DNA of 64,000 nucleotides. It comes from Butyrivibrio sp. (GTDB taxonomy: Bacteria; Bacillota; Clostridia; Lachnospirales; Lachnospiraceae). Shown here piece by piece: positions 1 through 13,409 of this stretch. Position numbers and translations under genes: made by a program. Numbering within the stretch: the first letter of the stretch is position 1; each line of letters opens with the position of its first letter. Location: contig NZ_JAFRGN010000031.1 of NCBI RefSeq assembly GCF_017433805.1, forward strand, positions 1-64,000, given 5' to 3'. The notes under the pieces are model-generated. The model did no database searches, was not told the DNA's origin, and saw nothing but the letters and a program-made list of their open reading frames with translations.

Positions 1-33
1 GTGACAGCTAAGGCCGTCATCATTGCAAGCTGA
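1..33 (+). CDS. 3' end of an unidentified CDS (partial)
   Basis: An open frame enters from the left edge and stops with TGA at 31-33, 17 bases before a strong terminator. Only ten codons are visible (ending Ile-Ile-Ala-Ser), so no family can be named. The short distance between stop and terminator is the only support. Confidence 0.35.
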   Translation: MTAKAVIIAS

Positions 34-50
34 ATATAATCTCGATAATC

Positions 51-90
51 AAAAAGGGTGACCACATCCTATGAAGTGATCACCTTTTTT
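51..90. terminator. Bidirectional Rho-independent terminator
   Basis: A-rich arm 51-65 and T-rich arm 76-90 pair over about 15 bp (AAAAAGGGTGACCAC with GTGATCACCTTTTTT, G-U pairs allowed). It has a T run on either strand, so it can end both the gene entering from the left and the minus-strand HerA-like gene that stops at 183. Confidence 0.85.
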
Positions 91-182
91 CTATGCTTAA
101 TTTGTTTATTTAACTTGTTTACTTGACAGACCCCTGTTCAAGCTCCTGGCTCTTAATTGTTTCCTTTAGTTTTCTGATTATA

Positions 183-1760
183 TTATGACTTGAAGAATGT
201 TGAAAGAATTCCACGTCCGAGAGATGCACCAAGGTTTCCACCAAGTGTCTTACCGAACTTACCGAATTTGCCACCAAGGGTTTTACCAACTTCTCGGCCG
301 ACGGTTCCAACAACAGCGTTGCCGACTGTCTTGGCAGCTTGTTTCTTCTTACGAGCTTCAGCAGCTTCTTCTTTAGCTTTAGCCTTTGCAGCAGCGGCTT
401 CCTCTTTTGCCTTAGCCTTAGCAGCTTCTTCCTCAGCCTTGAGTTTAGCAGCAGCTTCTGCATCAGCGATTCCCTTTCTCTCAAGGAATTCGTAAGCTGA
501 ATCTGGATCTTCTGGCTCGTAGTATTTGCTGTAGAGTACGCTCTGCTTGATCTCTTTTTCTCTGGTAGCTTCATCAATTCCGCCCATGAGATTCTGAGGA
601 GGAAGAATCTTGACTCTTTCTACAACAGTTGGAGTACCGGCCTCATCAAGGAATGAACATACAGCTTCACCAACGCCCAGTTCCTGAATGACATCAGCTG
701 TCTTGAAATTAGGATTCTCTCTGAAGGAATCAGCAGCAGCCTTAACAGCTTTCATATCAGAAGGAGTGTAAGCGTGAAGCGCGTGCTGAATCTTGTTACC
801 GAGCTGAGCAAGTACGCCGTCTGGAATATCTCTTGGATTCTGAGTTACAAAGTAAATACCAACGCCCTTGGATCTGATGAGCTTAACAACCTGCTCAATC
901 TTGTCCATGAGAAGCTTAGGAGCATCATCAAAAAGAAGGTGAGCTTCGTCAAAGAAAAATACCATCTTAGGTTTATCGAGATCACCAACCTCTGGAAGTG
1001 TCTCGAAGAGCTCAGACATCATCCACAGAAGGAAAGTGGCGTATAATTTACCGTTATTGATAAGGCTTGTGCTGTCGAGAATGTTGATCATTCCCTTACC
1101 GCCTTCGCCTGTTGTGAACCAGTCCTTGATATTTAGAGCAGGCTCAAAGAAGAACTTGTCGCCGCCAGCCATCTCGAGTGCAACGATAGCGCGAACGATA
1201 GCAGCAATAGAAACTTTGCTGATATTACCATAGGAAGCAGCGAACTCTTTGCTGTTCTCAGATATATAATTGAGCATTGCCTTCAGATCCTTGGTATCTA
1301 CAAGGAGCAGCTCATTGTCATCTGCAATCTTGAATGTAATTGTGAGAATATCACTCTGAAGATCATTAAGCCCCAGGATTCTTGCAAGAAGAAGTGGACC
1401 CATCTCTGAAACTGTGGTGCGAAGTGGAATACCATTTTCACCAAAGACATCCCAGAAAGTTGAAGGATATTTCTGATACTTAAAGCCAGCTTCGTCAAGG
1501 CCGAACTTCTGGATTCTCTTTTGCATATCCTCAGAATCTACACCTTCCTTGACCATTCCGGAAAGATCACCCTTAACATCAGCAAGGAATACTGGAACGC
1601 CCATATCACTGAAGGATTCAGCAAGAACCTTGAGTGTGATAGTTTTACCGGTACCTGTTGCACCAGCTACAAGACCATGTCTGTTTGCCATCTTAGGTAA
1701 AAGAAATACATTTTCCCCATTTTCGTTATTAGCTACCCAAATTTTCCCGTCTTTATACAT
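183..1760 (-). CDS. HerA/YjgR-like ATPase (DUF853 helicase family)
   Basis: A 525-residue P-loop ATPase of the HerA/FtsK-like DUF853 (YjgR) family, probably a cytoplasmic DNA-translocase-like enzyme with no established substrate. Walker A is GATGTGKT at residues 33-40, followed by the family-typical stretch ending FLADVKGDLSGM; the Walker B-type segment FFFDEAHLLF and a later FVTQNPRDIPD segment also match the family. Residues about 420-475 form an Ala/Lys/Glu-rich coiled coil, then a Gly-rich tail. An in-frame TTG at 1808 would extend it by 16 residues, but that codon sits inside the -10 box, so I chose ATG 1760, which has GGAG six bases upstream. Transcribed alone. Ala-rich low complexity at the end of the gene creates spurious open frames on both strands. 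Confidence 0.88.
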   Translation of the reverse strand: MYKDGKIWVANNENGENVFLLPKMANRHGLVAGATGTGKTITLKVLAESFSDMGVPVFLADVKGDLSGMVKEGVDSEDMQKRIQKFGLDEAGFKYQKYPSTFWDVFGENGIPLRTTVSEMGPLLLARILGLNDLQSDILTITFKIADDNELLLVDTKDLKAMLNYISENSKEFAASYGNISKVSIAAIVRAIVALEMAGGDKFFFEPALNIKDWFTTGEGGKGMINILDSTSLINNGKLYATFLLWMMSELFETLPEVGDLDKPKMVFFFDEAHLLFDDAPKLLMDKIEQVVKLIRSKGVGIYFVTQNPRDIPDGVLAQLGNKIQHALHAYTPSDMKAVKAAADSFRENPNFKTADVIQELGVGEAVCSFLDEAGTPTVVERVKILPPQNLMGGIDEATREKEIKQSVLYSKYYEPEDPDSAYEFLERKGIADAEAAAKLKAEEEAAKAKAKEEAAAAKAKAKEEAAEARKKKQAAKTVGNAVVGTVGREVGKTLGGKFGKFGKTLGGNLGASLGRGILSTFFKS

Positions 1761-1807
1761 ACCTTTCTCCATTCCGCCGAAAAAGTCGGCTAACACTCTT
1801 AAAGACA

Positions 1808-1835
1808 ATTATAGCACGGCTACAGCGGGATTGAA
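1808..1835 (-). promoter_or_regulatory. Promoter of HerA-like gene
   Basis: Minus strand reads TATAAT at 1813-1808 with TTCAAT at 1835-1830, spacer 16. The -10 is perfect, the -35 weak. The predicted start of transcription lies about 40 bases upstream of the chosen ATG at 1760. Confidence 0.6.
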
Positions 1836-1872
1836 GTACTTATGCACGAGAAAATCTCTATTAATAGGGAGT

Positions 1873-1901
1873 GCCGGAGTAGTATGAGGTTCTACTCCGG
1901 C
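1873..1901. other. Unexplained perfect hairpin
   Basis: GCCGGAGTAG (1873-1882) pairs perfectly with CTACTCCGGC (1892-1901) around a 9-base loop. There is no T run on the plus strand and no gene ends nearby, so it does not look like an ordinary terminator. It lies in the 540-base gap 1761-2300, which otherwise holds the HerA promoter and a probable minus-strand small RNA. Confidence 0.5.
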
Positions 1902-2084
1902 TGGTGTAAAAAAGTTGTTATGAAAGTGTTTATCCTTTCTGTATATAAATATAGATGGTTAACCTTAAAAATACCTAAAAATATTTTAGGAAAAACATTT
2001 TTTTTCCATATTTTTAAAACCATATGATATTAGTTGAAATTGGTACTTATGAGGATTATCATTGAAAAATGAAGTCTTTTTTTC

Positions 2085-2203
2085 CATAAAAAAACCACCT
2101 CGGAAGGTGGTGGATTTTTGGGAGGAGGGGTTGCCTAGTGGGGAACCAGACAACCCGTGTATGAAAAAAAGTATTGTTGGGGGTTCAGAAGGTATGTCCT
2201 TCT
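2085..2203 (-). ncRNA. Probable small RNA with C-rich loops (sRNA-1)
   Basis: On the minus strand a promoter-like pair (TTGGCA 2236-2231, TATACC 2213-2208, spacer 17) precedes about 118 bases of structured, non-coding sequence. It holds hairpin CAGAAGG/CCTTCTG (2204-2186), then hairpin GGGTTG/CAACCC (2156-2128) with an inner CTGG/CTAG helix and a CCCC-containing loop, then unpaired CCCCTCCTCCC (2130-2120). It ends in a strong terminator CCACCT/AGGTGG followed by seven T (2110-2088). No ORF with a ribosome site is present. C-rich single-stranded loops are typical of Gram-positive regulatory RNAs that pair with Shine-Dalgarno sequences; that function is inference. Confidence 0.55.
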
Positions 2204-2300
2204 GATAGGTATATATTACAAGGTAACTGTTGCCAAATTGTGACTGAACTCTAAAAGAAGTATGACCTATTCTAAATTATTTATAGGAGAATAAGAAAAA

Positions 2301-2738
2301 ATGTCAAAAAATAATCGAAATAAAACACATAAAAACACTGCAAAGGCCCATAAAAACAGCGGTTTTGGAAAGCTGATGATGTCACTTGTTATTTTGGGTG
2401 TGGTCGTTTTATTGTTCATAAATTACGCTTTACCAATGTTGAAAAGTTCATTTAAAAAAGCTGCAGCAGAAAAAACAGTAGAAGTTCTGACTGAGAATGC
2501 AGTAAAAGTTGCAGGAGAAGATTCTCAGGTGACGCAGATTCTGGAGAACTTATCTGAAGAAGATAAAGAAGTAGTTACTGAGATTGTAGAGAATCATATG
2601 GATGCTGAGTCTGTTTCTGAAGTTATGGGATATGTTTCTGACGGAGATAAAGACGGCCTTATGAAATATGCTGCAGAGAATCTATCACCGGAAGAGCTTG
2701 CACAGCTGGCGGAGTTATATGGTAAGTATGGTAATTAA
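2301..2738 (+). CDS. Small single-pass membrane protein, function unknown
   Basis: A 145-residue protein with a very basic Lys/Asn/His-rich N-terminus (residues 1-20), one hydrophobic segment at about 25-46 (MMSLVILGVVVLLFINYAL) and an acidic helical C-terminal part of about 95 residues. The charge pattern predicts N-in topology with the acidic domain outside. I do not recognise a family. GGAG lies 11 bases before the ATG, and the gene has its own terminator at 2767-2806. It is flanked on both sides by probable small RNAs on the opposite strand. Confidence 0.75.
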   Translation: MSKNNRNKTHKNTAKAHKNSGFGKLMMSLVILGVVVLLFINYALPMLKSSFKKAAAEKTVEVLTENAVKVAGEDSQVTQILENLSEEDKEVVTEIVENHMDAESVSEVMGYVSDGDKDGLMKYAAENLSPEELAQLAELYGKYGN

Positions 2739-2766
2739 TTAGATCTTTTTATTCTATATAAATATG

Positions 2767-2806
2767 AATGCCGATGATCAGAATTAATCTGGTCATCGGC
2801 ATTTTT
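2767..2806 (+). terminator. Rho-independent terminator
   Basis: ATGCCGATGATCAG pairs with CTGGTCATCGGCAT around a 7-base loop, followed by five T. It ends the small membrane protein gene. Confidence 0.9.
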
Positions 2807-2828
2807 AATATATTTATTCCTATAACGC

Positions 2829-2930
2829 AAAAACACCCACGGGGGGACGTGAGTGCCTGCGATTTTCTTATGAGGGGGAGATAGTGATTAGGTTCCGAAT
2901 AGATTCGTGAACCGAGCTGCATCACTAACT
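2829..2930 (-). ncRNA. Probable small RNA with C-rich loops (sRNA-2)
   Basis: The minus strand has TATAAT at 2941-2936 with TTTTGAAC at 2964-2957 (15-17 base spacer, depending on phase). The downstream 100 bases fold as TAGTGAT/ATCACTA (2927-2881) enclosing GGTTC/GAACC and a CGAA/TTCG tip, then an unpaired CTCCCCCTCA (2880-2871), then terminator stem CACTCACG/CGTGGGTG with loop TCCCCC and five T (2856-2832). No ribosome site or ORF is evident. The layout repeats that of the element at 2085-2203: hairpin, C-rich single strand, terminator. Regulation by pairing to Shine-Dalgarno sites is inference. Confidence 0.6.
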
Positions 2931-3099
2931 TGGTTATTATACTAAACCCTAATTGTGTTCAAAAAGTGAAGAAAATTATTATAAAATGTGAAAAATCGAC
3001 ATACATTCTATGAAGGCTGTCTGAGTGAATCTTAATTACAATACATGCCCATGAACAGTGAAATTGAGCTCCATTTTAGGCCTGATTTAATACTTATTT

Positions 3100-3105
3100 T
3101 ATAAT
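3100..3105 (+). promoter_or_regulatory. Candidate -10 box of the flagellin-like gene
   Basis: TATAAT at 3100-3105 lies 162 bases before the ATG. No convincing -35 is present at the right distance, and no sigma-28 type (TAAA, GCCGATAA) promoter was seen. Confidence 0.35.
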
Positions 3106-3144
3106 ATTTTGGACTTCATGGTGCTACGATGAGCTTAACAAGAA

Positions 3145-3249
3145 ATGGCATGGAGGCCATTTAGGTTTTTTGCAGGGATGCACAGCATGGATGCGTAAGT
3201 TATGCAGGGAAGCATGTTGCATGGATGGTTTGTTTTTGCAGGGATGCAA
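3145..3249 (+). promoter_or_regulatory. Leader with an array of GGA-loop hairpins (CsrA-like sites)
   Basis: Six GGA motifs of the form (G)CARGGAWGC lie in 105 bases just before the ribosome site. Five sit in the loop of a small perfect stem: ATGGC/GCCAT with loop ATGGAG (3145-3160), TGCA/TGCA with GGGA (3171-3182), GCA/TGC with TGGA (3185-3194), ATGC/GCAT with AGGGAA (3202-3215) and TTGCA/TGCAA with GGGA (3236-3249). A sixth, CATGGATG (3220-3227), is weakly paired. GGA in a hairpin loop is the known recognition element of CsrA. The gene's own AGGAGG is at 3257-3262. Confidence 0.65.
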
Positions 3250-3267
3250 GGAATCTAGGAGGTCTTT

Positions 3268-4032
3268 ATGAGTAGTATATCCTCTGTAGGCGGATATCAA
3301 GATTATTCCGCATATTCTACAATAGCCAGTGGTGGCAAAATAAATAAAGCAGCGGAAGATGCTGCAGGTCTCGCAATTCAGGAAAAGACACAGTCCCAGG
3401 TTAAAGGACTTGATGCCGGATCAGAAAATCTCACTTCAGCAAAATCAGCACTTAATATAGAAGAGGGAGCTCTTTCAGGAGTTGAAGATTATCTTCAGTC
3501 CATTAAAGAGTTATCTGTTAAGGCAATGAATGGAACTCTTTCACAAGATGATAAGGAGAGTATTCAGGCTCAGATAAAAGAATACTTAAAGGGCATCAAT
3601 GAGACAGCAGAGAGTACAACCTATAATGAAAAGAACCTTACTAATAATGATGGTTCTCTAAAGGTTGCTTCTGATGGAAATGGCTCAACAGAGACTGTTT
3701 CAACAAATAATGCTACAACAGATGCGCTTGGTATTACAGGGTATGATGTAACAGGCGATTTCGATATGAGCGTTATAGATAAGGCGCTCGAAAAGGTTTC
3801 TGGTCAGAGATCTGAAACTGGAGCTCAGACAAACGGCGTTGAGCATGCGCTTTCATATAATTCGCATGCCGCTATGGAGCTCAATGGTTATCAGATGGAC
3901 AAAGAAGAGGACAATGCAACAGCAGCTCTTCAGGAACTTAAGACCAAACAGGCTCTTGATTCCTATCAGGCTGTACTTCAGAAACAGCGTCAGGAAGACG
4001 AGCAGCAGAAATCCATGGCGATTTTTGCATAA
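3268..4032 (+). CDS. Short flagellin-like protein
   Basis: A 254-residue flagellin homologue. Residues about 20-125 match the conserved flagellin D1 region (GGKINKAAEDAAGLAIQEK, then an EEGALSGVEDYLQSIKELSVKAMNGT-like helix and a TTYNEKNL segment), and residues about 170-240 match the C-terminal D1 region (IDKALEKVSGQRSETGAQTN then EHAL). The first ~40 residues of a normal flagellin (the D0 helix beginning MxxxxN) are replaced by a short Ser/Tyr-rich start, and the last ~45 residues are Gln/Lys/Glu-rich and unlike the usual ILQQA-type end. Both D0 helices needed for filament packing therefore look altered. AGGAGG lies 5 bases before the ATG; the leader carries repeated GGA hairpins. A secreted or regulatory role is possible. 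Confidence 0.78.
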   Translation: MSSISSVGGYQDYSAYSTIASGGKINKAAEDAAGLAIQEKTQSQVKGLDAGSENLTSAKSALNIEEGALSGVEDYLQSIKELSVKAMNGTLSQDDKESIQAQIKEYLKGINETAESTTYNEKNLTNNDGSLKVASDGNGSTETVSTNNATTDALGITGYDVTGDFDMSVIDKALEKVSGQRSETGAQTNGVEHALSYNSHAAMELNGYQMDKEEDNATAALQELKTKQALDSYQAVLQKQRQEDEQQKSMAIFA

Positions 4033-4067
4033 TAACTTAGACCATTTTCTTAACATAACATTTTCCA

Positions 4068-4115
4068 GAATACGGAGAGAGCTGTCATTTCGGCTTTCTC
4101 CGTATTCCATTTTTT
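4068..4115 (+). terminator. Rho-independent terminator
   Basis: GAATACGGAGA (4068-4078) pairs with TCTCCGTATTC (4097-4107), followed by a T run at 4110-4115. It ends the flagellin-like gene. Confidence 0.9.
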
Positions 4116-4154
4116 GCTATACTTTATATGACTATTTTGCTTTCGGGGGTCAAT

Positions 4155-5099
4155 GTGAATAGATATAGGATTTATGGACTTATAGTAGAATCGGAAGTTG
4201 AGTTTATTCAGCTGGAAAGAGCCAGAGAGGATGAAGGCTCTTTAGATAATACTATTTATATCAAACAGGAAAAGTGCTCTGATGAAGTGATGGATGTTAT
4301 TACCAAGGCAGATGCGTTAGATAAGCAATATCATATCGCATCAGAAGCCTCATACTTTTTTAACAAGGGAGGCTTTTATGCAATCAAGAATGGCAGAGAT
4401 ATAATTTTTGAGACCAAAGAGGGCTATATGCCACAGACAGTATCAGCGTGGCTTCTGGGATATTGCATGGCTATTCTTTTATATGAGAGAAGAACAATTG
4501 CCATTCATTGCAGCGCAGTATCTGGCGAAAATGGTGCTTTCCTCATTTCTGGAGAGATGGGAGCAGGTAAATCATCTCTTACAAGGAAAATGCTCGAGAG
4601 AGGCTTCAAGATCATGGCTGATGATGTAGCAGCTGTCAGACTACAGACAGCTCCAGGTGAGGATAAAGAGAACGCTTTTGTATATCCGGCATTTCCATAT
4701 CAGAAGCTTTGCAGAAATGAAGTTGAGAGTAGAAACTTTAACATGGATGAGCTCATTTATATTGATGAGGCAAAAGATAAGTTTCTTGTCCCAGTTAAGG
4801 ATAAGTTTGTATCAGATCCGCAGAAACTTAAATTCCTCATTTTTCTGGTGGTTGCCACTAATGTTGATGACGTAGAAGTTCAGAAGATGACAGGCCTTAA
4901 CCAGCTGTTGTCTATCAGACAGAATGTTTTTCTTCATAGACTTAAGGGAGATTGGGAGAATAGTAAAGAGTATAGTGAGCTCTGCCTTAAGGTTGCAGCT
5001 AACTGTCCGGTATATCTGATTGCCAGACCAATAGAAGGCAATTCTCAGGAAAAAATAGCAGATATAGTTGAGAAAATTTATAGAGGCGAAGAAGTATAA
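4155..5099 (+). CDS. HPr-kinase-like protein of RiPP (lasso peptide) type
   Basis: A 314-residue P-loop kinase of the HprK C-terminal-like family that occurs in lasso-peptide loci, where members (PadeK/ThcoK type) phosphorylate the C-terminal serine of the precursor. Seen here: N-terminal YRIYGLIVESE start, the conserved IHCSAV segment, Walker A GEMGAGKS at residues 133-140, and the ADD acidic pair at 155-157. It is too short for, and lacks, the N-terminal domain of true HPr kinase. An in-frame ATG at 4128 lies within a few bases of a candidate -10 (TATACT 4118-4123) and has no ribosome site; GTG 4155 has GGGGG five to six bases upstream, so I prefer it. It converges with the precursor and cyclase genes on the minus strand. 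Confidence 0.8.
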   Translation: MNRYRIYGLIVESEVEFIQLERAREDEGSLDNTIYIKQEKCSDEVMDVITKADALDKQYHIASEASYFFNKGGFYAIKNGRDIIFETKEGYMPQTVSAWLLGYCMAILLYERRTIAIHCSAVSGENGAFLISGEMGAGKSSLTRKMLERGFKIMADDVAAVRLQTAPGEDKENAFVYPAFPYQKLCRNEVESRNFNMDELIYIDEAKDKFLVPVKDKFVSDPQKLKFLIFLVVATNVDDVEVQKMTGLNQLLSIRQNVFLHRLKGDWENSKEYSELCLKVAANCPVYLIARPIEGNSQEKIADIVEKIYRGEEV

Positions 5100-5102
5100 T
5101 AA

Positions 5103-5132
5103 AACAGCCACAGGAAAATTCCTGTGGCTGTT
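5103..5132. terminator. Bidirectional terminator between convergent genes
   Basis: AACAGCCACAGGAA (5103-5116) pairs perfectly with TTCCTGTGGCTGTT (5119-5132). It lies four bases after the kinase stop and 23 bases past the end of the minus-strand small ORF, so it can serve both. Confidence 0.85.
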
Positions 5133-5155
5133 ATCATTTGCATGTTAGATGTCGA

Positions 5156-5314
5156 TCATGACTGGATTTCAATATCTGATGATCCCTCTGATTTAACAAC
5201 TACAACATCCAAAGCAGTAGAAGGATCAGGACGACTGATCTTCTCAAGTGTCTTGAACACTTCTGTGTTCTCGATGCTGATAGAGTTGATTTCTGGCTTT
5301 GTCCAATTTTTCAT
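5156..5314 (-). CDS. Lasso-precursor-like small peptide A2
   Basis: A 52-residue ORF starting MKNWTKPEI and ending EIQS. Its first 18 residues align without gaps with the 71-residue peptide at 7463-7678: W4, E8, I9, T17 and E18 are shared. W4-x2-P7-x-I9-x7-T17 matches the Firmicutes lasso leader pattern (W/Y-x2-P-x-L, then a Thr at -2). Counting residue 19 as core position 1, there is no Asp/Glu at 7-9 (Glu is at 6), so a canonical macrolactam ring is not assured. The last residue is serine, the residue phosphorylated by lasso-type HprK-like kinases. GGGAG lies about 9 bases before the ATG. It follows the cyclase gene on the same strand after 103 bases. Confidence 0.65.
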   Translation of the reverse strand: MKNWTKPEINSISIENTEVFKTLEKISRPDPSTALDVVVVKSEGSSDIEIQS

Positions 5315-5417
5315 ACCGCATCTCTCCCTTCATAATAAAATCTTGGATAGAAACATTATCTGATAAAAACGCGTGGACGTAAACCTTTCTATCAAAATTG
5401 TAACAATAATAAACAGA

Positions 5418-7352
5418 TTATAAATTTTTGATCTTTTTTACAGTATTTTGAAACTGGTAGCATTTTGAAAGAAGTGATAAAACATTTTGATAGTGCATAA
5501 TATCTTCGTTAGTTGTCGGCATATCTGATTCTTTCAATTTATCTATTACATCAAAATCAAGGAATCTACCCCAAAAGTCTCTGTCGATTCTGTTGCATAG
5601 ATATTCTGCTGATTTTTTTTGTTCTTCAAACCAATCCTTGTCCTTACCATTGTCCTGTTCATCTTCTTCATCAACAGGGACGTCAGTACTGGGACTTATC
5701 TTGGATGTAAGTTCATAAAGAGATTTTGGAAAAATATCTTTAAAGGCCTGGCGGAAAATATACCTGTTCTGGTTATTCTTTATATACATATGACGCGGAA
5801 TAGAGACAGCATAATCTATTACTTCGTAGTCTAAATAAGGGAAGATATATCTCGCTCCGGAATAAGCACCAAATAAAGTAGCGACTCGTATTCTTACCTG
5901 AGTGGCTCCTGAGTTAATGTAACTGATGGCATCAAAGGGAAAATAAAATGGTGTAGCTTTATAGTCTGTGTATTTATCTTTGAAATCCTGTCTCAAAATA
6001 TCTGGAGCATTAAGGTATGATTTGTAAGGATCGTTCTGGTAGCTGTAACCTCGCGCTTTTTTATATCTGAATTGTTTTATGGTTTTAATTAGTCGGTTGC
6101 TCTGCCCTTTTGTCTGGTCATACAAGCATTTAAGACAATGGAAATATTCTTTATTGTATAAAAGCTCATAAGAATCAGCTCTGTGACTTACTCCTTCGTC
6201 ACCACCATGACCCGTGAAAACAACGTTACTACCGCTTTCGCTGATGAATTGTGCGGTCTGAGATAGAGCAGGAGTATCTATAAAAAGTGGAAGAGCACAG
6301 TTATCAACAAAGTTGCTATTGGGATTAATTGATAGCCCTGCTTCTTTATGACTTTTATATAAATTGGAATCCATATAATTATATTTCTTTCTTCTATAAT
6401 TACAGGATATATTTTCATGATCGCAGATATCCTGGATGATGAGACGCTCATCATTTGGAACAATTGGAACATCATTGGTATCAAATGACCAGGAGTAGAA
6501 AACCGCTTTTCTTCCAAATCTGTTAATCAGAATATCTATTGCTCCAGAATCAAGCCCTCCAGATAACTCTGCACCGATAAGACCAGGAAAAACTTCTAGT
6601 CTTTTTCGTATTGAGCCTGATATTAATTCTCTCATTTTTGAAATGTATTTTTTGTTGGATAGGTATTTGATTTTATGAGAGCCTAGCTTCCAATACGATT
6701 TTTCGGAGTAGCTGTATATGTCTTTAGATATATCGATTGTAAAATATGTGGCAGGTGTAACAATGTATATATCGGAATACTCAGTCTGATTGTGTGATGT
6801 TGTAGTATAACCATTGATCATATTAAATAGATATTCAGGATTAATATCAGCGCTTATATCAGGGAGCGCTATGAGTCCGCGTATGTCGGTTGAAAAAGAG
6901 ATACAAGAATCGGACTTATAATAATATAAGGGACGAATACCCATATGATCGGTGAAAAGAACCAGAGTTTTCGCTTGCGAGTCGTATAATGCTCCTGCAA
7001 AATCACCATTTACATGTCTCAGCTCATCTAATCCATATTTAGTAATCAATGCAAAGAGTAATTTTTCGTCTGAATAAGAGGAAGAAAGATTGTATTTGTA
7101 TATAAGATCATTTCTATTATATATAATCGTATCTATTACAGCTGTTACATTGTTCTCACTTATTATGGGGGTCTGATTGACTGGAGTATTAGTGATATGT
7201 TCAGTACTGATTCCTATTCCCAGATTAGGAGAAAAGTAAGAATTGATTGTATTATTTCCATAAGCCTTGTTCCAACTAGATAAATAATTCAAACAGGTCT
7301 CTGTTGTGGGCTGATCATATTGTTTGTTGATTATTCCATAAATTCCACTCAT
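5418..7352 (-). CDS. Asparagine-synthetase-like lasso cyclase (C protein)
   Basis: A 644-residue asparagine-synthetase-like protein: N-terminal glutaminase-type domain (about 1-215) and C-terminal ATP-pyrophosphatase domain with the loop LSGGLDSGA. The protein begins MSGIYGI, so the catalytic Cys2 of class-II glutamine amidotransferases is replaced by Ser; this is expected of lasso cyclases, which activate an Asp/Glu side chain with ATP instead of using glutamine. An upstream in-frame start at 7433 would run through the terminator hairpin; ATG 7352 has AAGGAG eight bases before it and gives the conserved N-terminus. It lies downstream of precursor-like A1 (7463-7678) on the same strand, with a terminator between them, and upstream of A2. 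Plain asparagine synthetase is less likely given Ser2 and the neighbours. Confidence 0.78.
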   Translation of the reverse strand: MSGIYGIINKQYDQPTTETCLNYLSSWNKAYGNNTINSYFSPNLGIGISTEHITNTPVNQTPIISENNVTAVIDTIIYNRNDLIYKYNLSSSYSDEKLLFALITKYGLDELRHVNGDFAGALYDSQAKTLVLFTDHMGIRPLYYYKSDSCISFSTDIRGLIALPDISADINPEYLFNMINGYTTTSHNQTEYSDIYIVTPATYFTIDISKDIYSYSEKSYWKLGSHKIKYLSNKKYISKMRELISGSIRKRLEVFPGLIGAELSGGLDSGAIDILINRFGRKAVFYSWSFDTNDVPIVPNDERLIIQDICDHENISCNYRRKKYNYMDSNLYKSHKEAGLSINPNSNFVDNCALPLFIDTPALSQTAQFISESGSNVVFTGHGGDEGVSHRADSYELLYNKEYFHCLKCLYDQTKGQSNRLIKTIKQFRYKKARGYSYQNDPYKSYLNAPDILRQDFKDKYTDYKATPFYFPFDAISYINSGATQVRIRVATLFGAYSGARYIFPYLDYEVIDYAVSIPRHMYIKNNQNRYIFRQAFKDIFPKSLYELTSKISPSTDVPVDEEDEQDNGKDKDWFEEQKKSAEYLCNRIDRDFWGRFLDFDVIDKLKESDMPTTNEDIMHYQNVLSLLSKCYQFQNTVKKIKNL

Positions 7353-7383
7353 GTAGAATTCTCCTTGCATAGTGAAAAGAACA

Positions 7384-7421
7384 GTAAAAAAGGATGTGTA
7401 AACCATAAGTTTACACATCCT
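7384..7421 (-). terminator. Terminator/attenuator between precursor A1 and cyclase
   Basis: On the minus strand a perfect 13-bp stem (AGGATGTGTAAAC at 7421-7409 with its complement at 7403-7391), 5-base loop, is followed at once by six T. Placed between a short precursor ORF and its enzyme gene, it would let the precursor be made in excess, as is common in RiPP operons. Confidence 0.85.
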
Positions 7422-7462
7422 CGATATTAACATGAAAACTAGTTTCTAACAAATAGTATCTA

Positions 7463-7678
7463 TTATGAAAGTCTATCTGTAGTTGTACCAGAATCGCCTG
7501 TAGGCTGATCACCTGTAGTCTGTGGTTCATTGCCAGTCTGAGTTGGAATATCTCCAGTTATTGCCTGATGTGGCCAAGGGATGCAAATGCATTCACCTTC
7601 TGTCCATAATTCATGCCAACCATTCTCTGTCTTGTTGAGATCAAGTGCAACGATCTCTGCGTTATTCCACTTTTTCAT
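7463..7678 (-). CDS. Lasso-precursor-like small peptide A1
   Basis: A 71-residue ORF starting MKKWNNAEIVALDL and ending DRLS. Leader residues W4, I9, T17 and E18 coincide with those of peptide A2 (5156-5314); the usual Pro7 is Ala here. If Thr17 is at -2, the core starts at Asn19 and Glu27 is core position 9, a suitable ring acceptor. Residues 29-37 (ECICIPWPH) contain two Cys. From residue 40 on there is a Thr/Gly/Asp/Gln tail with repeated TGD/TGN units, much longer than usual lasso cores. It ends in Ser, as kinase-modified lasso peptides do. AAGGAG lies about ten bases before the ATG. It is first in the minus-strand unit A1-terminator-cyclase-A2. An unrelated small secreted protein cannot be excluded. 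Confidence 0.65.
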   Translation of the reverse strand: MKKWNNAEIVALDLNKTENGWHELWTEGECICIPWPHQAITGDIPTQTGNEPQTTGDQPTGDSGTTTDRLS

Positions 7679-7861
7679 ACCTTTTTTTCTCCTTAATAAT
7701 CATAAAAAATATTCCCGACTTCATGTAATATACAATATTTGTTTCTGTATGTATCGAATTCTAACAAAAAAGTAACAAATGCTTTTTTATAAAGATAGAA
7801 TATTTCGACAATTTAGAGATTTGAGATATAACTTTTTGAAAACTAATGATGTATTTTTTTA

Positions 7862-7890
7862 TTGACCGCATTCATACATAGGACTATAAT
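7862..7890 (+). promoter_or_regulatory. Promoter of SulP gene
   Basis: TTGACC (7862-7867), 17-base spacer, TATAAT (7885-7890). The transcript start would be about 60 bases before the ATG; the leader contains the hairpin ATAACCGA/TCGGTTAT at 7901-7926. Confidence 0.8.
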
Positions 7891-7958
7891 TTCATAGGCT
7901 TTATAACCGATAATTGGCTCGGTTATATCGGGTTTATTGTAAATACTTGGAGGATATT

Positions 7959-9602
7959 ATGGAAAACGAGAGATTAAAGCCGATGCTGTTTACAGCCCTC
8001 AAGGGTTACACTCGTAAGCAGCTGGCACAGGATGTAGTAGCTGGTATTATTGTAGCTATCATTGCACTTCCTTTATCAATTGCTCTGGCGCTTACATCCG
8101 GAGTTGGCCCAGAGGAAGGTCTTTACACTGCAATTGTTGCAGGATTTATTATTTCATTCCTTGGTGGTAGCAGAGTTCAGATCGCCGGACCTACAGCTGC
8201 GTTCGCGACAATTGTTGCCGGCATTGTTGCTAATAAGGGAATGGAAGGGCTCGCTCTTGCAACTATTTTTGCCGGAGTTCTTCTTATCTTAATGGGGGTA
8301 TTCAAACTTGGATCACTTATCAAGTTTATTCCTTATACTATTACAACAGGTTTTACAGCCGGAATTGCTGTTACAATCGCTATCGGACAGGTTAAGGACT
8401 TCCTTGGACTTACTTATCCGGCTGGAACTGCTACTGTAGAGACAGTAGATAAGGCTTCTGCTATTGCACGCAATATCGGAACATTCAATTATCAGGCATT
8501 TATCGTAGGTATGGTATGTCTTGTTATTCAGATTGTATGGCCTAAGGTTAACAAGAAGATTCCTGGATCACTTATTGCAGTTATCGTGGGAATTCTTATG
8601 GTCAAGTTCCTTGGCATGAATGTTAATACAATTGGTGATCTCTATGAGATCAAGGGACAGCTCCCTAAGCTTACTATTCCAGAATTTAGTTTTAGTACAC
8701 TTACTTCTGTGGCAGGAGATGGTGTTACAATCGCTATCCTTGCTGCTATTGAGTCACTTCTTTCATGCGTTGTTGCTGACAGCATGATCGATTCCAAGCA
8801 CAGATCCAACATGGAGCTTGTAGCTCAAGGTGCTGGTAACATCGGTTCAGCTCTTTTTGGTGGTATTCCTGCAACTGGAGCTATTGCCCGTACAGCAGCT
8901 AATATCAAGAATGGTGGTAGAACACCTATAGCTGGTATGGTTCATTCTGTATGTCTTGTACTTGTACTTCTCGTACTCATGCCATATGCAGCACTTATTC
9001 CAATGCCTACTATTGCAGCTATTCTTTTCATGGTTGCTTATAATATGTGCCAGTATAAGACGTTCCTTCATCTGGTTAAGACTGCTCCTAAGAGCGATAT
9101 CATCGTACTTGTTACAACCTTTGTTCTTACAATCGTATTCGATCTTGTTGTAGCTATTGAGGTTGGTATGGTTCTTGCATGCCTCCTGTTCATGAAGAGA
9201 ATGAGCGAAGAGTCCAGAGTCCGTGGTTGGAAGTACTATGATCCAGAGGATGATCCAGACGGCCCAGGACTTAAGGATATTCCTAAGCACGTAAGAGTTT
9301 ATGAGATCAGTGGACCGATGTTCTTTGGTGATGCTGAGCAGATTGCTGCTATCAGCTTCAAGGACTTCACAAGAGCTCTTGTTATAAGAATGCGTGGTGT
9401 TCCAGCAATTGATGCAACAGCTATGCACTCATTTGAGCAGCTCTACGAGAGATGTCAGAAGAACGGCGTTCAGCTTGTCTTTTCACATGTTAATGAGCAG
9501 CCTATGAACACAATGGAAAAGGATGGATTTGTTGACCTTGTTGGTAGAGAGAACTTCCAGCCTCACATTGATGATGCGCTTAAGAGAGCAGCTGAGATTT
9601 GA
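7959..9602 (+). CDS. SulP family anion transporter with STAS domain
   Basis: A 547-residue inner-membrane transporter of the SulP (SLC26) family, which moves sulfate, bicarbonate or other anions. The long hydrophobic part (about 20-395) starts with the SulP signature region (DVVAGIIVAIIALPLSIALA then GVGPEEGLYTAIV) and includes QIAGPTAAF. A cytoplasmic STAS domain follows (about 425-547; SGPMFFGDAEQI and AIDATAMHSF). I chose ATG 7959, which has GGAGG five bases upstream; an in-frame start at 7914 lies too close to the promoter. Single-gene unit with its own promoter and terminator. The substrate cannot be told from sequence. Confidence 0.9.
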   Translation: MENERLKPMLFTALKGYTRKQLAQDVVAGIIVAIIALPLSIALALTSGVGPEEGLYTAIVAGFIISFLGGSRVQIAGPTAAFATIVAGIVANKGMEGLALATIFAGVLLILMGVFKLGSLIKFIPYTITTGFTAGIAVTIAIGQVKDFLGLTYPAGTATVETVDKASAIARNIGTFNYQAFIVGMVCLVIQIVWPKVNKKIPGSLIAVIVGILMVKFLGMNVNTIGDLYEIKGQLPKLTIPEFSFSTLTSVAGDGVTIAILAAIESLLSCVVADSMIDSKHRSNMELVAQGAGNIGSALFGGIPATGAIARTAANIKNGGRTPIAGMVHSVCLVLVLLVLMPYAALIPMPTIAAILFMVAYNMCQYKTFLHLVKTAPKSDIIVLVTTFVLTIVFDLVVAIEVGMVLACLLFMKRMSEESRVRGWKYYDPEDDPDGPGLKDIPKHVRVYEISGPMFFGDAEQIAAISFKDFTRALVIRMRGVPAIDATAMHSFEQLYERCQKNGVQLVFSHVNEQPMNTMEKDGFVDLVGRENFQPHIDDALKRAAEI

Positions 9603-9653
9603 TGTATTATTGTTCGTAAACATATTTTCATTAATATAGAATATTGAATATTA

Positions 9654-9689
9654 GAGGAGATACTGGTTTTATCCGGTATCTCCTTTATT
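9654..9689 (+). terminator. Rho-independent terminator
   Basis: GGAGATACTGG pairs with CCGGTATCTCC (one G-U pair), followed by a short T-rich tail; 50 bases after the SulP stop. Confidence 0.8.
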
Positions 9690-9713
9690 GATGTAAATTA
9701 ATATTTAGAGTTT

Positions 9714-9745
9714 TTGCCTTTTCGAAACACAAGATATGGTATAAT
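9714..9745 (+). promoter_or_regulatory. Promoter of PIN-PhoH gene
   Basis: TATAAT at 9740-9745 is a perfect -10. The -35 is poorly defined (TTGCCT at 9714-9719 with a long spacer, or TTTTCG at 9719-9724). Confidence 0.55.
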
Positions 9746-9781
9746 GAACATATAAGTCATACAAATAAGGGGGACCTACGC

Positions 9782-11173
9782 ATGAAGAAGATCTACGTAT
9801 TGGACACCAACGTTTTGATTCAGGCACCTCATGCTCTTAAGTGCTTTGATGATAACGAGGTCGTTCTTCCGCTGGTAGTCTTGGAGGAACTCGATGGCCA
9901 CAAGAGGGATGAGGGCGAGCGAGGAGCAAACGTCCGTGAGGCCATCAGGATTTTGGAGCAGCTAAGAGGCGCAGGGGATTTGGTCAAGGGCGTTGAACTT
10001 GACAATGGAGGTTTCCTTAGAGTTGAAAAGAACTTCAAGGATGTAGAACTTCCAAAGGATATGGCAGAGTACAAATCTGATAACCGTATTCTTAAGGTTT
10101 GTAAGGGACTTAGTGATAGTAGTAAGGAACAGGTAATTCTCGTAACCAAGGATATTCTGATGCGCATTAAGGCTCAGATCCTGGGAGTTAAATCAGAGGA
10201 CTTTACTACAGAGCAGGTAGCAGGAGAGGGCGAGCAGTACAGTGGCCGTATTACCGTATATGCACCTGAAGATGTATTCAAGGATTTCAAGAAAAAAGGA
10301 ATACCAGTTAGCAAAGTGTATTGCTGCGATGATGAGGGTATCGAGTATACACCAGAGCTATATGAGAATGAATTTGTAGTTATCAGAGCAGACCAGTCCA
10401 ACAACAAGACTCAGATGGGACGTGTCAGTGGCGGATTTATCAAGAAGCTCGAATATGAAAAGTGCCAGCCCTATGGTGTTAAGCCAAGAAATGCTGGACA
10501 GTATTTCCTCCAGGAAGCGCTTATGCAGCCTGCAGAGGTGGCACCACTTGTAATAGTCAAGGGTATGGCTGGAACAGCCAAGACATTCTATTCGCTGGCT
10601 GTAGGTCTTGAGAAGATGATCAACAGACCAACAGGAGAATACCGTAGGATTCTGGTCTGCAGGCCTAATTCACAGTTTGATGATGATATAGGTTTTTTAC
10701 CAGGTGATGAGCAGGAGAAGATTTCTCCTCTTATGAGACCTATTATCGATAACTTAGAACAGCTCATAGATTCCAACGAGGAAGAGCGCTACAAGGATGA
10801 AAAAGAATTGCAGGGTAAGACTGATGAGGTCTTCGAGAGGGGAATCGTACAGTGTGAGGCGCTTAACTTTATCCGAGGCAGATCTATTCTGAAGACCTTC
10901 CTTATAATAGATGAAGCGCAGAACATGACACCTACTCAGGCCAAGGGAATTATCACCAGAGCAGGTAAAGATACCAAGATCATTCTGTTGGGCGATCCTA
11001 ATCAGATAGACAGACCATTCCTTGATGAGAGGACCAATGGACTGTCCTATGCATCTGAACATATGAAGGGAAGCCCATTTGCATGGCAGATTTCTCTTTC
11101 TGCTTCAGAATGTGAGAGAAGTAAACTTGCAATGGATGCAATTAATAGGATGAAAGACAAGGAGAATTTCTAA
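9782..11173 (+). CDS. PIN domain-PhoH ATPase (YlaK/PhoH2-like)
   Basis: A 463-residue cytoplasmic protein fusing an N-terminal PIN nuclease domain (about 1-135, starting KKIYVLDTNVLI with the catalytic Asp8, and VVLEELDG) to a PhoH-type P-loop ATPase (about 225-463). Walker A is GMAGTAKT at 261-268, the PhoH-typical variant, and the Walker B segment IIDEAQ is at 375-380. This PhoH2 architecture has been described as an RNA helicase/RNase in other bacteria. GGGGG lies just before the ATG, and the gene stands alone between promoter and hairpin. The length is normal for the family. Confidence 0.92.
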   Translation: MKKIYVLDTNVLIQAPHALKCFDDNEVVLPLVVLEELDGHKRDEGERGANVREAIRILEQLRGAGDLVKGVELDNGGFLRVEKNFKDVELPKDMAEYKSDNRILKVCKGLSDSSKEQVILVTKDILMRIKAQILGVKSEDFTTEQVAGEGEQYSGRITVYAPEDVFKDFKKKGIPVSKVYCCDDEGIEYTPELYENEFVVIRADQSNNKTQMGRVSGGFIKKLEYEKCQPYGVKPRNAGQYFLQEALMQPAEVAPLVIVKGMAGTAKTFYSLAVGLEKMINRPTGEYRRILVCRPNSQFDDDIGFLPGDEQEKISPLMRPIIDNLEQLIDSNEEERYKDEKELQGKTDEVFERGIVQCEALNFIRGRSILKTFLIIDEAQNMTPTQAKGIITRAGKDTKIILLGDPNQIDRPFLDERTNGLSYASEHMKGSPFAWQISLSASECERSKLAMDAINRMKDKENF

Positions 11174-11200
11174 TATTTTTATTATATTTTGAACACATTT

Positions 11201-11229
11201 TTGACATATTTGGAAACTGAGTTTAAAAT
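11201..11229 (+). promoter_or_regulatory. Strong promoter not explained by a gene
   Basis: TTGACA (11201-11206), 17-base spacer, TAAAAT (11224-11229), located after the PhoH stop and before a terminator hairpin at 11297-11335. No ORF starts between them. Confidence 0.6.
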
Positions 11230-11235
11230 AATACG

Positions 11236-11335
11236 TAATAATGCTGATTATACTTATGTTCTAAGGATACAAATATTTTTTGCAAAGTGATTGTGTGGAC
11301 GGAGCCACTTTAAGGGTGGTTTCGTCCTTATTTTA
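11236..11335 (+). ncRNA. Candidate small RNA between phoH and sugar ABC operon
   Basis: A promoter at 11201-11229 would give a transcript of about 100 bases ending at the terminator 11297-11335. The interval holds no ORF beyond two codons. Alternatively the promoter is fortuitous and the hairpin only ends the PhoH transcript, which has no other terminator. Confidence 0.35.
11297..11335 (+). terminator. Rho-independent terminator
   Basis: GGACGGAGCCAC (11297-11308) pairs over 12 bp, with two G-U pairs, with GTGGTTTCGTCC (11316-11327), followed by a T-rich tail. Confidence 0.85.
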
Positions 11336-11374
11336 TGGGCGTTTTGGCCACTTTGTTAATTTGTTAATAAATAT

Positions 11375-11402
11375 TTTACAAATTGGGGATATATAGTATA
11401 AT
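11375..11402 (+). promoter_or_regulatory. Promoter of the sugar ABC operon
   Basis: TTTACA (11375-11380), 16-base spacer, TATAAT (11397-11402), 53 bases before the ATPase start. No clear operator palindrome was seen. Confidence 0.65.
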
Positions 11403-11455
11403 CTTCTTTGCGACTTTTAACACTTTTTTATTTTATTTAGAATTAGGGGTAAGAA

Positions 11456-12499
11456 ATGGACATTAGAATTGAGAATCTGACAAAAACATATGGTAATCTT
11501 AACGCAGTTGATCATATGAACCTCAGAATCAATGACGGCGAGCTTGTAGGCCTTCTTGGACCATCTGGTTGTGGTAAGTCTACAACACTTTTCATGCTGT
11601 CAGGACTTACAACACCTACAGAGGGTAAGATATTCTTTGGTGACAAGGATGTAACATCAATTCCTCCAGAGGACAGAGAGATTGGTCTTGTTTTCCAGAA
11701 CTATGCTCTTTATCCACACATGACAGTTGAGGATAATATTACATTCCCACTTATCAACCGTGGAGTTAAGAAGGCTCAGGCCAGAGAAGAGGCTCTTGAG
11801 ATTGCCAAAGTTGTTAAGATTGATCAATATATGAATAGAAAGCCTAGCGAGCTTTCAGGTGGTCAGCAGCAGAGAGTTGCTATTGCAAGAGCACTTGTTA
11901 AGAAGCCACAGGTACTTCTTCTTGATGAGCCTTTATCTAACCTTGATGCTAAGCTTCGTGTAGCAACAAGAGAAGAGATCAGACGTATTCAGCAGGAAGT
12001 TAAGATCACAACTATCTTCGTTACTCATGACCAGGAAGAGGCTATGAGTATTTCAGATCGTATCGCAGTTATGAAGGAAGGCGTTCTTCAGCAGTACGAG
12101 GTACCTCAGACAATGTACCTTAACCCAGCTAACGAGTTCGTTGCTAACTTCCTTGGAACTCCTGAGATCAACAACATTGAAGTTGACGTTAAGGATGGAG
12201 TTATTACAGCTGGCGATGCAGTTCTTAGAACTGGTGCTAAGCTTGCAGATGGTCATTATCATGCAGGTATCAGACCAGAATCCTTCTATGTAGATGAGAA
12301 TGGAATATCTTTTGCAGTTGATAACCTTCGTATGACAGGTCGTGACCTGCTTCTCTTCACTAAGCTTGGTCAGACAGTTGTTCGTGTTCTTGTTCACTCA
12401 TATATGCATGTGGCTGAGGGAGATGTTATCAAGGCTTCTGTTCGTGAGGGACATATCCTTGTATTTGATTCTTCAGAAAAGCTTATTGGTAGATTTTAA
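11456..12499 (+). CDS. Sugar ABC transporter ATPase (MalK/UgpC/MsmX type)
   Basis: A 347-residue ATPase of the CUT1 carbohydrate importer class. Walker A GPSGCGKST at 35-43, signature LSGGQQQ from 133, Walker B LLLDEPLSNLD, switch His in VTHDQEEAM, then a C-terminal TOBE-type regulatory domain (about 240-347; HAGIRPESF). It is the first gene of a four-gene unit, with a 22-base gap to the first permease. MsmX-type ATPases may serve several importers; having a dedicated copy in the operon suggests a specific pairing. No evidence identifies the sugar. Confidence 0.93.
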   Translation: MDIRIENLTKTYGNLNAVDHMNLRINDGELVGLLGPSGCGKSTTLFMLSGLTTPTEGKIFFGDKDVTSIPPEDREIGLVFQNYALYPHMTVEDNITFPLINRGVKKAQAREEALEIAKVVKIDQYMNRKPSELSGGQQQRVAIARALVKKPQVLLLDEPLSNLDAKLRVATREEIRRIQQEVKITTIFVTHDQEEAMSISDRIAVMKEGVLQQYEVPQTMYLNPANEFVANFLGTPEINNIEVDVKDGVITAGDAVLRTGAKLADGHYHAGIRPESFYVDENGISFAVDNLRMTGRDLLLFTKLGQTVVRVLVHSYMHVAEGDVIKASVREGHILVFDSSEKLIGRF

Positions 12500-12521
12500 T
12501 TGGTGAAAAAGGGAGAACAAA

Positions 12522-13397
12522 ATGGATAAGAAGAGCTTTAAGGGATATTTATATCTCCTTCCATCTATAATCATCATGTTAGCTTTCACAATTTACCCAT
12601 TGATCAGAGCTATCATCATGAGCTTTTTAGGTGATTACAGCATCATCAATCACGGATATTCATCAATTGGTTTTGACAATTACAAGGCACTTTTCGCTGA
12701 TCCTGATTTTGCACTTTCACTTAGAAATACATCTATTTATGTAATATGCGTGGTACCTGCATCAATCATTCTTTCACTGATCATTGCAGTACTTATTAAT
12801 AGCTGTAACAAGACTAAGGCATTTTTCCAGACAGTATATTTCCTTCCTTATGTAACCAGTGTTATTGCCATTGGTATCGTATGGAGATGGATGTTCAATA
12901 GTAACTATGGACTTATCAATTATTTTCTTGGATTCTTTGGAATTGATCCTATTCCATGGCTGAATCGTCCAGAGTATGCTATGCCAGCTCTTATCATCTT
13001 CGCTATTTGGAAGAGCATGGCGTTCAACATCCTTATTTTCCTTGCTGGTCTTCAGACTATTCCAGAGGACCTCTACAGAGCAGCTAGAATCGATTCAACA
13101 CCTAAGCTTCGTGTGTTTACCAGAATCACAGTTCCACAGCTTGCTCCTATGATCGTATATTCAAGCGTTATCGGTATGATCGGTGCGTTTAAGGTATATA
13201 ACGAAGTATTCTCACTTTTCCAAGGCAAGGCAGGCCCAGCCAACAAGGCTATGACTATTGTTTATTACATTTATGATAAATTCTACAATAGTTACAAGTA
13301 TGGCGTAGCTGCTGCTGGTTCAGTTGTACTGTTTATCATTATTCTTGTAATGACACAGATCCAGCTGAGAGTAACAGGTGAAAAGAAGAAAAAATAA
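12522..13397 (+). CDS. Sugar ABC transporter permease (MalF/UgpA type)
   Basis: A 291-residue membrane protein of the binding-protein-dependent transport family with about six transmembrane segments. The EAA-like loop for ATPase contact is present as EDLYRAARIDSTPKLRVF, around residues 187-204. GGGAG is six bases before the ATG, and the next permease starts 12 bases after the stop. With its partner it forms the CUT1 membrane pore. Confidence 0.92.
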   Translation: MDKKSFKGYLYLLPSIIIMLAFTIYPLIRAIIMSFLGDYSIINHGYSSIGFDNYKALFADPDFALSLRNTSIYVICVVPASIILSLIIAVLINSCNKTKAFFQTVYFLPYVTSVIAIGIVWRWMFNSNYGLINYFLGFFGIDPIPWLNRPEYAMPALIIFAIWKSMAFNILIFLAGLQTIPEDLYRAARIDSTPKLRVFTRITVPQLAPMIVYSSVIGMIGAFKVYNEVFSLFQGKAGPANKAMTIVYYIYDKFYNSYKYGVAAAGSVVLFIIILVMTQIQLRVTGEKKKK

Positions 13398-13409
13398 GAG
13401 GAAATAAAG

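Follow-up and report, generated by a model that had tools for sequence, protein, structure and literature searches.

How might a locus that encodes a peptide cyclase, a kinase and two candidate precursors yield a lasso peptide when it carries neither the leader-binding protein B1, the leader peptidase B2 nor an exporter? The question is raised by positions 4155-7678 of a 64,000-nucleotide stretch of Butyrivibrio sp. DNA (NZ_JAFRGN010000031.1; hereafter the window), which is C27:1-64000 of a 3.45-Mb genome in 74 contigs that is 98% complete (labelled G000). Four genes lie there as the initial annotation had described them: an HprK-like kinase, an asparagine-synthetase-like cyclase and two short precursor-like open reading frames (ORFs), A1 and A2, which have the same kind of leader and end in Ser. 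We propose that the window holds a satellite of a complete lasso cluster on another contig, C4. It is probable, in our judgement, that B1 and B2 of C4 act in trans, that the local cyclase closes the ring, that the local kinase phosphorylates Ser and that C4 provides export. Genes, motifs, counts, clade and co-occurrence were read from the sequence, and it is from these that we infer leader binding, cleavage, ring closure, threading, phosphorylation and export of A1.

A1 (7463-7678, minus strand; 71 aa, with the ribosome-binding site AAGGAG upstream) is a predicted lasso precursor. Its leader (residues 1-18; 7625-7678, minus strand) bears W4, A7, I9, L12 and T17 and resembles the leaders of core-cluster precursors, those of complete lasso clusters, a likeness for which the underlying scan demanded part of the pattern. 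Under the T(-2) rule for the leader cut, and with the ring numbering of paeninodin, A1 would be cut after residue 18, giving a nine-residue ring, or after residue 19, giving an eight-residue ring with Gly first. The former cut would place the ring at NGWHELWTE (x-G-x6-E; residues 19-27; 7598-7624, minus strand) and leave a core of 53 residues with two Cys (GECIC), three TGD units and one TGN, much as had been annotated. T17 near the leader end and the acidic E27 together form the lasso precursor pattern. The neighboring cyclase gene (5418-7352, minus strand) encodes 644 aa beginning MSGIYGI, with Ser at position 2, matches to the Pfam families Asn_synthase and GATase_7, and an intact SGGLDS; its residues mark it as a putative lasso-type macrolactam cyclase, and the tree places it in what we call the satellite clade.

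Candidates for the missing functions were found on C4. No match to B1 or B2 was obtained in a hidden Markov model (HMM) scan of window positions 1-14000, in keeping with their absence as first annotated, and the genome-wide search for both that had been suggested returned one of each: a single PqqD match (B1, C4:33511-33711) and a single Transglut_core3 match over its cut-off (B2, C4:26594-26863). We set aside one further Transglut_core3 match, a weak one of 23 bits in a 357-aa frame on C23. With the NCBIfam models, B2 of C4 scores 68 bits (NF033537, over the cut-off) and B1 scores 81 bits (NF033536, cut-off 80). The two genes belong to a complete lasso cluster that comprises an ATP-binding cassette (ABC) exporter, B2, a precursor on the opposite strand, a cyclase, a kinase, NTP_transf_5, Gly_transf_sug and B1, as well as a glycosyltransferase-like gene judged by eye; its precursor has the same leader kind as A1 and A2. 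The satellite begins 4 kb into its contig and B1/B2 are found 26-34 kb into C4, so at least about 30 kb would separate them even if the contigs abutted. B1 of C4 also matches structure 9x90 (56 bits), which we take to be PbaB1 from its name and residue numbering, and by our count it has Lys and Ser at the positions of PbaB1 Gly42 and Gln79. PMC13381572 ties Asn and Asp at those positions of the RRE, the RiPP (ribosomally synthesized and post-translationally modified peptide) recognition element, to Tyr leaders; with Lys and Ser there, B1 of C4 lacks these marks.

C4 may have other clients. The lasso-cyclase model marks 23 places in the genome, and reading of the loci leaves four Ser2 cyclases, in the window and on C28, C33 and C4. 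In the C28 and C33 satellites the cyclase is preceded, at 92 and 76 bp respectively, by a precursor with this leader, and the 15 and 13 kb scanned there gave no match to B1, B2 or a kinase. Seven other cyclase-like genes, on C57, C38 and C56, read MCGI or MCAI at or near the start and keep Cys2 and NGE; they were set aside and used as an outgroup, and several sit amid genes that by eye are of polysaccharide type. A profile built from 18 precursors picks out six sites in the genome. Five of them (A1, A2 and the C28, C33 and C4 precursors) had contributed to the profile; the sixth, an orphan on C51, had not. This orphan (MKTWNTPEIKELKLSGTQLSGDD..., L123:8733-8921, G000:C51, minus strand) resembles the C4 precursor and has a ribosome site and a terminator-like hairpin. 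No cyclase, kinase, B1 or B2 match was found in the surrounding 19 kb, and the C4 cyclase may act on this orphan in trans. The genome has two lasso-type kinases, in the window and on C4; C56 holds a further weak match (28 bits), which may be HprK. The idea that the C4 kinase is retained to phosphorylate satellite precursors is not supported, as HprK-like kinases also occur in core clusters of satellite-free genomes (L099, L100, L101 and others), where the adjacent precursors have another residue than Ser at the end. As a side observation, the core cluster of L099 (G001:C2) lies on a 242,710-base contig, and an equal-sized Butyrivibrio fibrisolvens plasmid, NZ_CP146964.1, holds a similar cyclase; a lasso hub can therefore be plasmid-borne.

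Satellites and B1/B2 occur together across the genus. Satellite cyclases were found in nine of 79 genomes, and B2 over its cut-off in 24; B1 matched at E<=0.001 in the same 24, exceeding its curated cut-off in nine. All nine satellite genomes held B1 and B2 versus 15 of the 70 others (Fisher p=6e-6), and a subset limited to genomes with 90% completeness or more and 5% contamination or less gave 7/7 and 12/40 (p=8e-4), although these p-values are optimistic because related genomes are not independent. Counted as present were a B2 match with internal stops in G026 and a B1 match with one in G019, both of these genomes being satellite-free; in G026 (L106) the interrupted gene is a lasso B2 homologue and B1 is still present. 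Satellite and B1/B2 are on different contigs in G000, G010, G012, G021, G024 and G054 (where the satellite is a contig-end fragment) and lie 0.88 Mb apart on one contig in G006. At the family level, genomes at least 90% complete held satellites in at least 4/298, a lower bound because the search with A3 scored at most four candidates per genome, B2 in 9/298 and both in three (p=8e-5). The family satellite genomes besides our own were G180 and G199, with satellite and B2 on one contig, and G338, without B2. A further sample comes from the 24 GTDB loci with strong matches to the cyclase (L021-L044; E of 7e-96 or better, the next match being 2e-27), which derive from 23 genomes, of which the genus set includes four. 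Of the 23, 17 had a B2 match and 18 a B1 match of at least 65 bits; the genome of L022 had a B1 match and no B2 match. Loci L024, L026, L028 and L041 have a single B1/B2 pair with a satellite and a core cyclase, and in L036 and L040 the only cyclase seen is of the satellite type (typed in L040 by HMM score only), in company with a precursor, a single B1 and a single B2, and genes for a kinase, an ABC protein and an NTP-transferase. Separately, satellite and core cyclase lie close together with one B1 in L022, L023, L024, L026, L028, L041 and L121. That one B1/B2 pair sits on C4, taken with the genus co-occurrence, makes trans action the simplest and best-supported reading, short of proof, and the alternative by which B proteins act in trans was already offered in the initial annotation.

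The precursor is conserved along with the cyclase. At 23 of the 24 related loci an ORF with the same leader occurs no more than 700 bp from the cyclase, and x-G-x6-E is present in one such ORF at 21 of 24; lack of homologous small ORFs, once named as a ground for doubt, is thus not what was found. That scan demanded M[KRN], an aromatic residue, P/A/S/E, hydrophobics and T and left Glu, Gly and the final Ser free, so that T17 at 100% and, in part, the leader likeness are there by construction. Contig ends cut the upstream side of L026 and L038, and at L039 the one ORF obtained lies downstream and lacks the motif. A motif-blind scan of 28 cyclases found both the W-x12-T leader and the x-G-x6-E ring motif in 23 of 25 upstream ORFs; no start was recognised in L022, and neither L026 (truncated by the contig end) nor L021 (A1 on the opposite strand) yielded an ORF. 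The two misses were L039 and L018; in L018 the scan chose a longer frame that overlaps the true precursor. In 26 upstream same-strand satellite precursors, taken from our own genome, the genus genomes and the GTDB loci, Glu occupies core position 9 in 26/26, with E making up 8% of core letters; 24/26 end in Ser and 18/26 are followed by a hairpin with a T-tail. These Ser ends, together with PadeK as treated in passages of PMC9266682, point to the C-terminal Ser codon of A1 (7466-7468, minus strand) as the predicted phosphorylation site. Among 29 satellite precursors chosen by Gly and Glu, 27 end in Ser versus 8 of 20 core-cluster precursors; W4 is present in 29/29, P7 in 23/29 and A7 in 6/29, the scan having permitted W/Y/F and P/A/S/E. 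Satellite cores are long, with a median of 45 residues versus 32, and L031 and L032 carry cores almost identical to that of C28. In L021 (Butyrivibrio sp. VCB2006) A1, cyclase, A2 and kinase recur together, the cyclase at 52% identity. A1 (376-627) is there on the strand opposite to the cyclase (837-2816), and the two are thus not always co-transcribed. L080, L082, L085 and L092 were dropped as repeats of L021, L027, L033 and L044; L024 and L041 are near-copies.

The cyclase itself has lost the hallmarks of a glutamine-using synthetase. In 28/28 satellite cyclases, those of the window, C28 and C33 included, Cys2 is replaced by Ser and the N of NGE by Asp, and the four tested SGGxDS positions are intact, as in all other compared groups. 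All seven asparagine synthetases of our own genome retain Cys2 and NGE. Three Bacillota lasso-cyclase references, drawn from a plasmid collection, have Ser and Asp at these positions (3/3), and 17/17 core cyclases likewise have no Cys at position 2, so the loss of Cys2, which the initial annotation had pointed out, is not peculiar to this locus. Nothing close to the satellite cyclase turned up in that plasmid collection, where all 290 records were below 60% identity, the best among the matches listed being 25.5%. With the asparagine synthetase model TIGR01536 the window cyclase scores 134.6 bits, under the cut-off of 267.1. In a tree of 55 rows, rooted on the asparagine synthetases and including two long-branched rows (L038, L040 and L095 were too short and were excluded), the satellite cyclases form one clade (SH-aLRT, a likelihood-ratio branch support, of 100; stem 2.06), and the 17 core cyclases form another with L118 and L119 (99). 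The L118 cyclase, from Priestia aryabhattai, lies beside a gene labelled "paeninodin family lasso peptide". The window cyclase stands apart from the seven synthetases of its own genome; clustering with ordinary synthetases had been named in the annotation as a refutation. Because of the rooting and the two long branches, the tree does not tell whether the satellites are nearer to lasso cyclases or to asparagine synthetases; the lasso reading of the cyclase comes from its residues, neighbors and precursors. By this tree the satellite cyclases are a deep clade apart from core and paeninodin-type cyclases. To that extent the earlier suggestion of a divergent class is right, but overall only in part.

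Under the proposed model, A1 would be made with its Trp-type leader, which the single discrete RRE (B1) and the single B2 peptidase of C4 would bind and cut in trans. The cyclase beside A1 would then join the new N-terminus to Glu27, forming a ring of eight or nine residues that encircles a long acidic tail, the HprK-like kinase encoded nearby would phosphorylate the C-terminal Ser, and export would probably proceed through the ABC transporter of C4. The same hub would also serve at least two further satellites (C28 and C33), its own precursor and the orphan precursor on C51. On the comparative evidence, the satellite is a conserved part of a distributed lasso-like system. We advance more tentatively a hub-and-spoke RiPP network in which one RRE, one peptidase and one exporter would serve four cyclases and six precursors, the Glu-linking lasso cyclases of the spokes would make up a new, deep clade, and the hub would also feed a linear phosphopeptide, A2, at the window.

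Several observations weigh against this model. Co-occurrence, with its optimistic p-values, is no proof that B1 and B2 of C4 act on A1. In G014 and G052 the distance from satellite to B1/B2 is 12-29 kb within one contig, and of the 23 genomes behind L021-L044, which are of unstated completeness, six have no B2 match and five no B1 match of at least 65 bits. L035, which is the same locus as L122 (G338/G093, 93% complete), has a satellite precursor and cyclase, and B1 and B2 were not found in that genome; it is either a counter-example or an assembly gap. The NCBIfam lasso-cyclase model NF033535 gives the window cyclase 173 bits against a cut-off of 525, and in the genome-wide search with this model several ordinary asparagine synthetases outscore the window cyclase (up to 299 bits versus 144), so that the score is indecisive here. 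The hub cyclase itself scores 132, also under 525. Satellite cyclases have a mean identity of 18.1% to core lasso cyclases and of 18.1% to asparagine synthetases. That equality, along with the Asn_synthase and GATase_7 matches, would suit an ordinary asparagine synthetase beside unrelated small ORFs, an explanation we regard as scarcely tenable given the loss of Cys2 and of the N of NGE in every satellite cyclase, their separate place in the tree and the motif-bearing precursors that adjoin them. Decay of a once complete cluster after loss of B1/B2 would account for a locus without these genes or an exporter, but it is very improbable: the four ORFs are intact, they recur together in L021 (cyclase 52%, kinase 72% identical), and SGGxDS is kept throughout the 28 cyclases.

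Two other explanations deserve more weight, and both are unlikely. The somewhat stronger of them dispenses with B1/B2 altogether, an unrelated protease or another route exposing the core so that the cyclase takes a leaderless peptide; L035/G338, a satellite with no B1/B2 detected, would fit, and Zyubko (2019), going by its title, is said to concern cyclisation of a leaderless peptide in pseudomycoidin. It is hard to hold because the W-x12-T leader is kept in 23/25 upstream ORFs of the motif-blind scan, which would be odd if nothing read it, and all nine genus satellite genomes retain both B genes. Slightly less probable again is that the cyclase forms an unthreaded Glu-linked macrolactam or another amide, the product being a RiPP and not a lasso peptide. 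The depth of the satellite clade (stem 2.06), its 18-19% identity to core and reference cyclases and the long cores would agree with such a product. However, a satellite-type cyclase is the only one seen in two otherwise complete clusters (L036 and L040), its glutaminase losses match those of the references, and the ring spacing is that of the L118 precursor (LGGSGEYTD). We thus retain the satellite of the C4 cluster, matured in trans, as the preferred reading.

The nearest known systems are of the paeninodin type (PadeA/B1/B2/C/K, PbaA and pseudomycoidin). The window shares with them the Trp-type leader, T before the cut, the x-G-x6-acid spacing, the HprK-like kinase and the C-terminal Ser, and the C4 hub shares the discrete B1 and B2, NTP_transf_5 and the ABC exporter. 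In the paeninodin-family precursor of Priestia L118, which reads T-M-LGGSGEYTD, the spacing is the same and the acceptor is Asp, as is usual for the type, whereas all 26 satellites have Glu. Satellites differ further in their long cores, in a cyclase of a separate deep clade, in B1, B2 and exporter away from the locus, and in precursors that no NCBIfam or Pfam model matches. A survey of 425 rumen genomes catalogued Butyrivibrio lasso clusters, and its Table 3 gives one precursor each for B. proteoclasticus B316 and Butyrivibrio sp. MC2021 (Sabino et al. 2020; PMC7533575). The C4 hub is of the kind catalogued there; the core precursors of G006 (L084) and G024 (L088) are those of B316 and MC2021, and the table does not include the satellite precursors of L083 and L087. 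G006 carries B316's listed precursor and, 0.88 Mb from B1/B2, a second precursor paired with a cyclase of its own. Mining that demands an adjacent B2 and cyclase would miss such dispersed precursor-cyclase pairs. Maturation enzymes far from their precursors are described in passages on lanthipeptide proteases (PMC8960859) and on a citrulassin PAD (PMC12971885); there a protease or tailoring enzyme is unlinked, whereas here the docking protein and leader peptidase would serve several cyclase loci. No account of a B1/B2 pair common to dispersed lasso cyclase loci was found among the matches listed in searches of open-access literature, a weak negative as most subscription papers lie outside it. 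If B1 and B2 do act in trans, one RRE-peptidase pair could sustain an expanding range of products, the specificity of the RRE and the sharing of pathways would be directly testable, and Glu-linking cyclases with long tails would be offered as new parts.

A2 (5156-5314, minus strand; 52 aa) has W4, I9, T17 and E18 in its leader and a C-terminal Ser in common with A1, the leaders differing at position 7 (WxxA in A1, WxxP in A2). Two lasso precursors had been annotated. A1 has the ring motif, but the corresponding stretch of A2 reads VFKTLEKIS, and since x-G-x6-acid is absent A2 is unproven as a lasso precursor. Its counterpart in Butyrivibrio sp. VCB2006 (L021:2910-3071) is 44% identical, with nonsynonymous and synonymous divergences (dN and dS) of 0.53 and 1.65; values were obtained for A2 only, dS being saturated for A1 and the cyclase. 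Residue 27 of the counterpart is Glu, yet Gly20 is absent there too. Neither A1 nor A2 matched any NCBIfam family at E<=0.1. By analogy with linear polyphosphorylated peptides (LPP), A2 may be a linear kinase substrate and phosphopeptide. LPP (PMC13381572) have an HprK-like kinase, an RRE-read leader and phosphorylated Ser, and A2 is likewise without a ring motif; LPP leaders are YxxP, with a SipW-like peptidase (LppS) and no cyclase, whereas A1 and A2 carry Trp. Leader-bearing ORFs with an LS end and no ring motif were also seen by core cyclases at L096:12617-12790 and L107:17607-17810; these are A2-like and possible linear kinase substrates.

The putative HprK-like lasso-tailoring kinase (4155-5099, plus strand) was recognised by HprK-type HMM matches, all under their curated cut-offs. 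Its frame is open from ATG 4128; GTG 4155 is the likelier start because GGGGG precedes it and the L021 relative, 72% identical and with like neighbors, matches from VNRYRIYG onward. H127, K148, D165 and D166 (4128-frame numbering) are common to the window and C4 kinases and, in our mapping, are taken to be the His-Lys-Asp-Asp set of HprK-like kinases. A terminator-like hairpin of 13 pairs, 7 of them G-C, separates the convergent A2 and kinase genes (5103-5132, minus strand). Between A1 and the cyclase, the perfect terminator first annotated is borne out by a 13-bp perfect stem with a T-tail (7390-7422, minus strand; 15 pairs with G-T allowed), which could act as terminator or attenuator. Terminator-like sites number 4 versus 1.9 expected and promoter-like sites are at chance (17 versus 16.3 expected). 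Hairpin stems with a similar word (about CCTTGTCAA) recur in the precursor-cyclase gaps of L024, L025, L027, L028, L041, L042, L043 and L083, from several species, and the shared word might be more than a plain terminator. Adjoining the kinase, a short flagellin-like ORF (3268-4032; 254 aa) matches Flagellin_N only from profile position 26 on.

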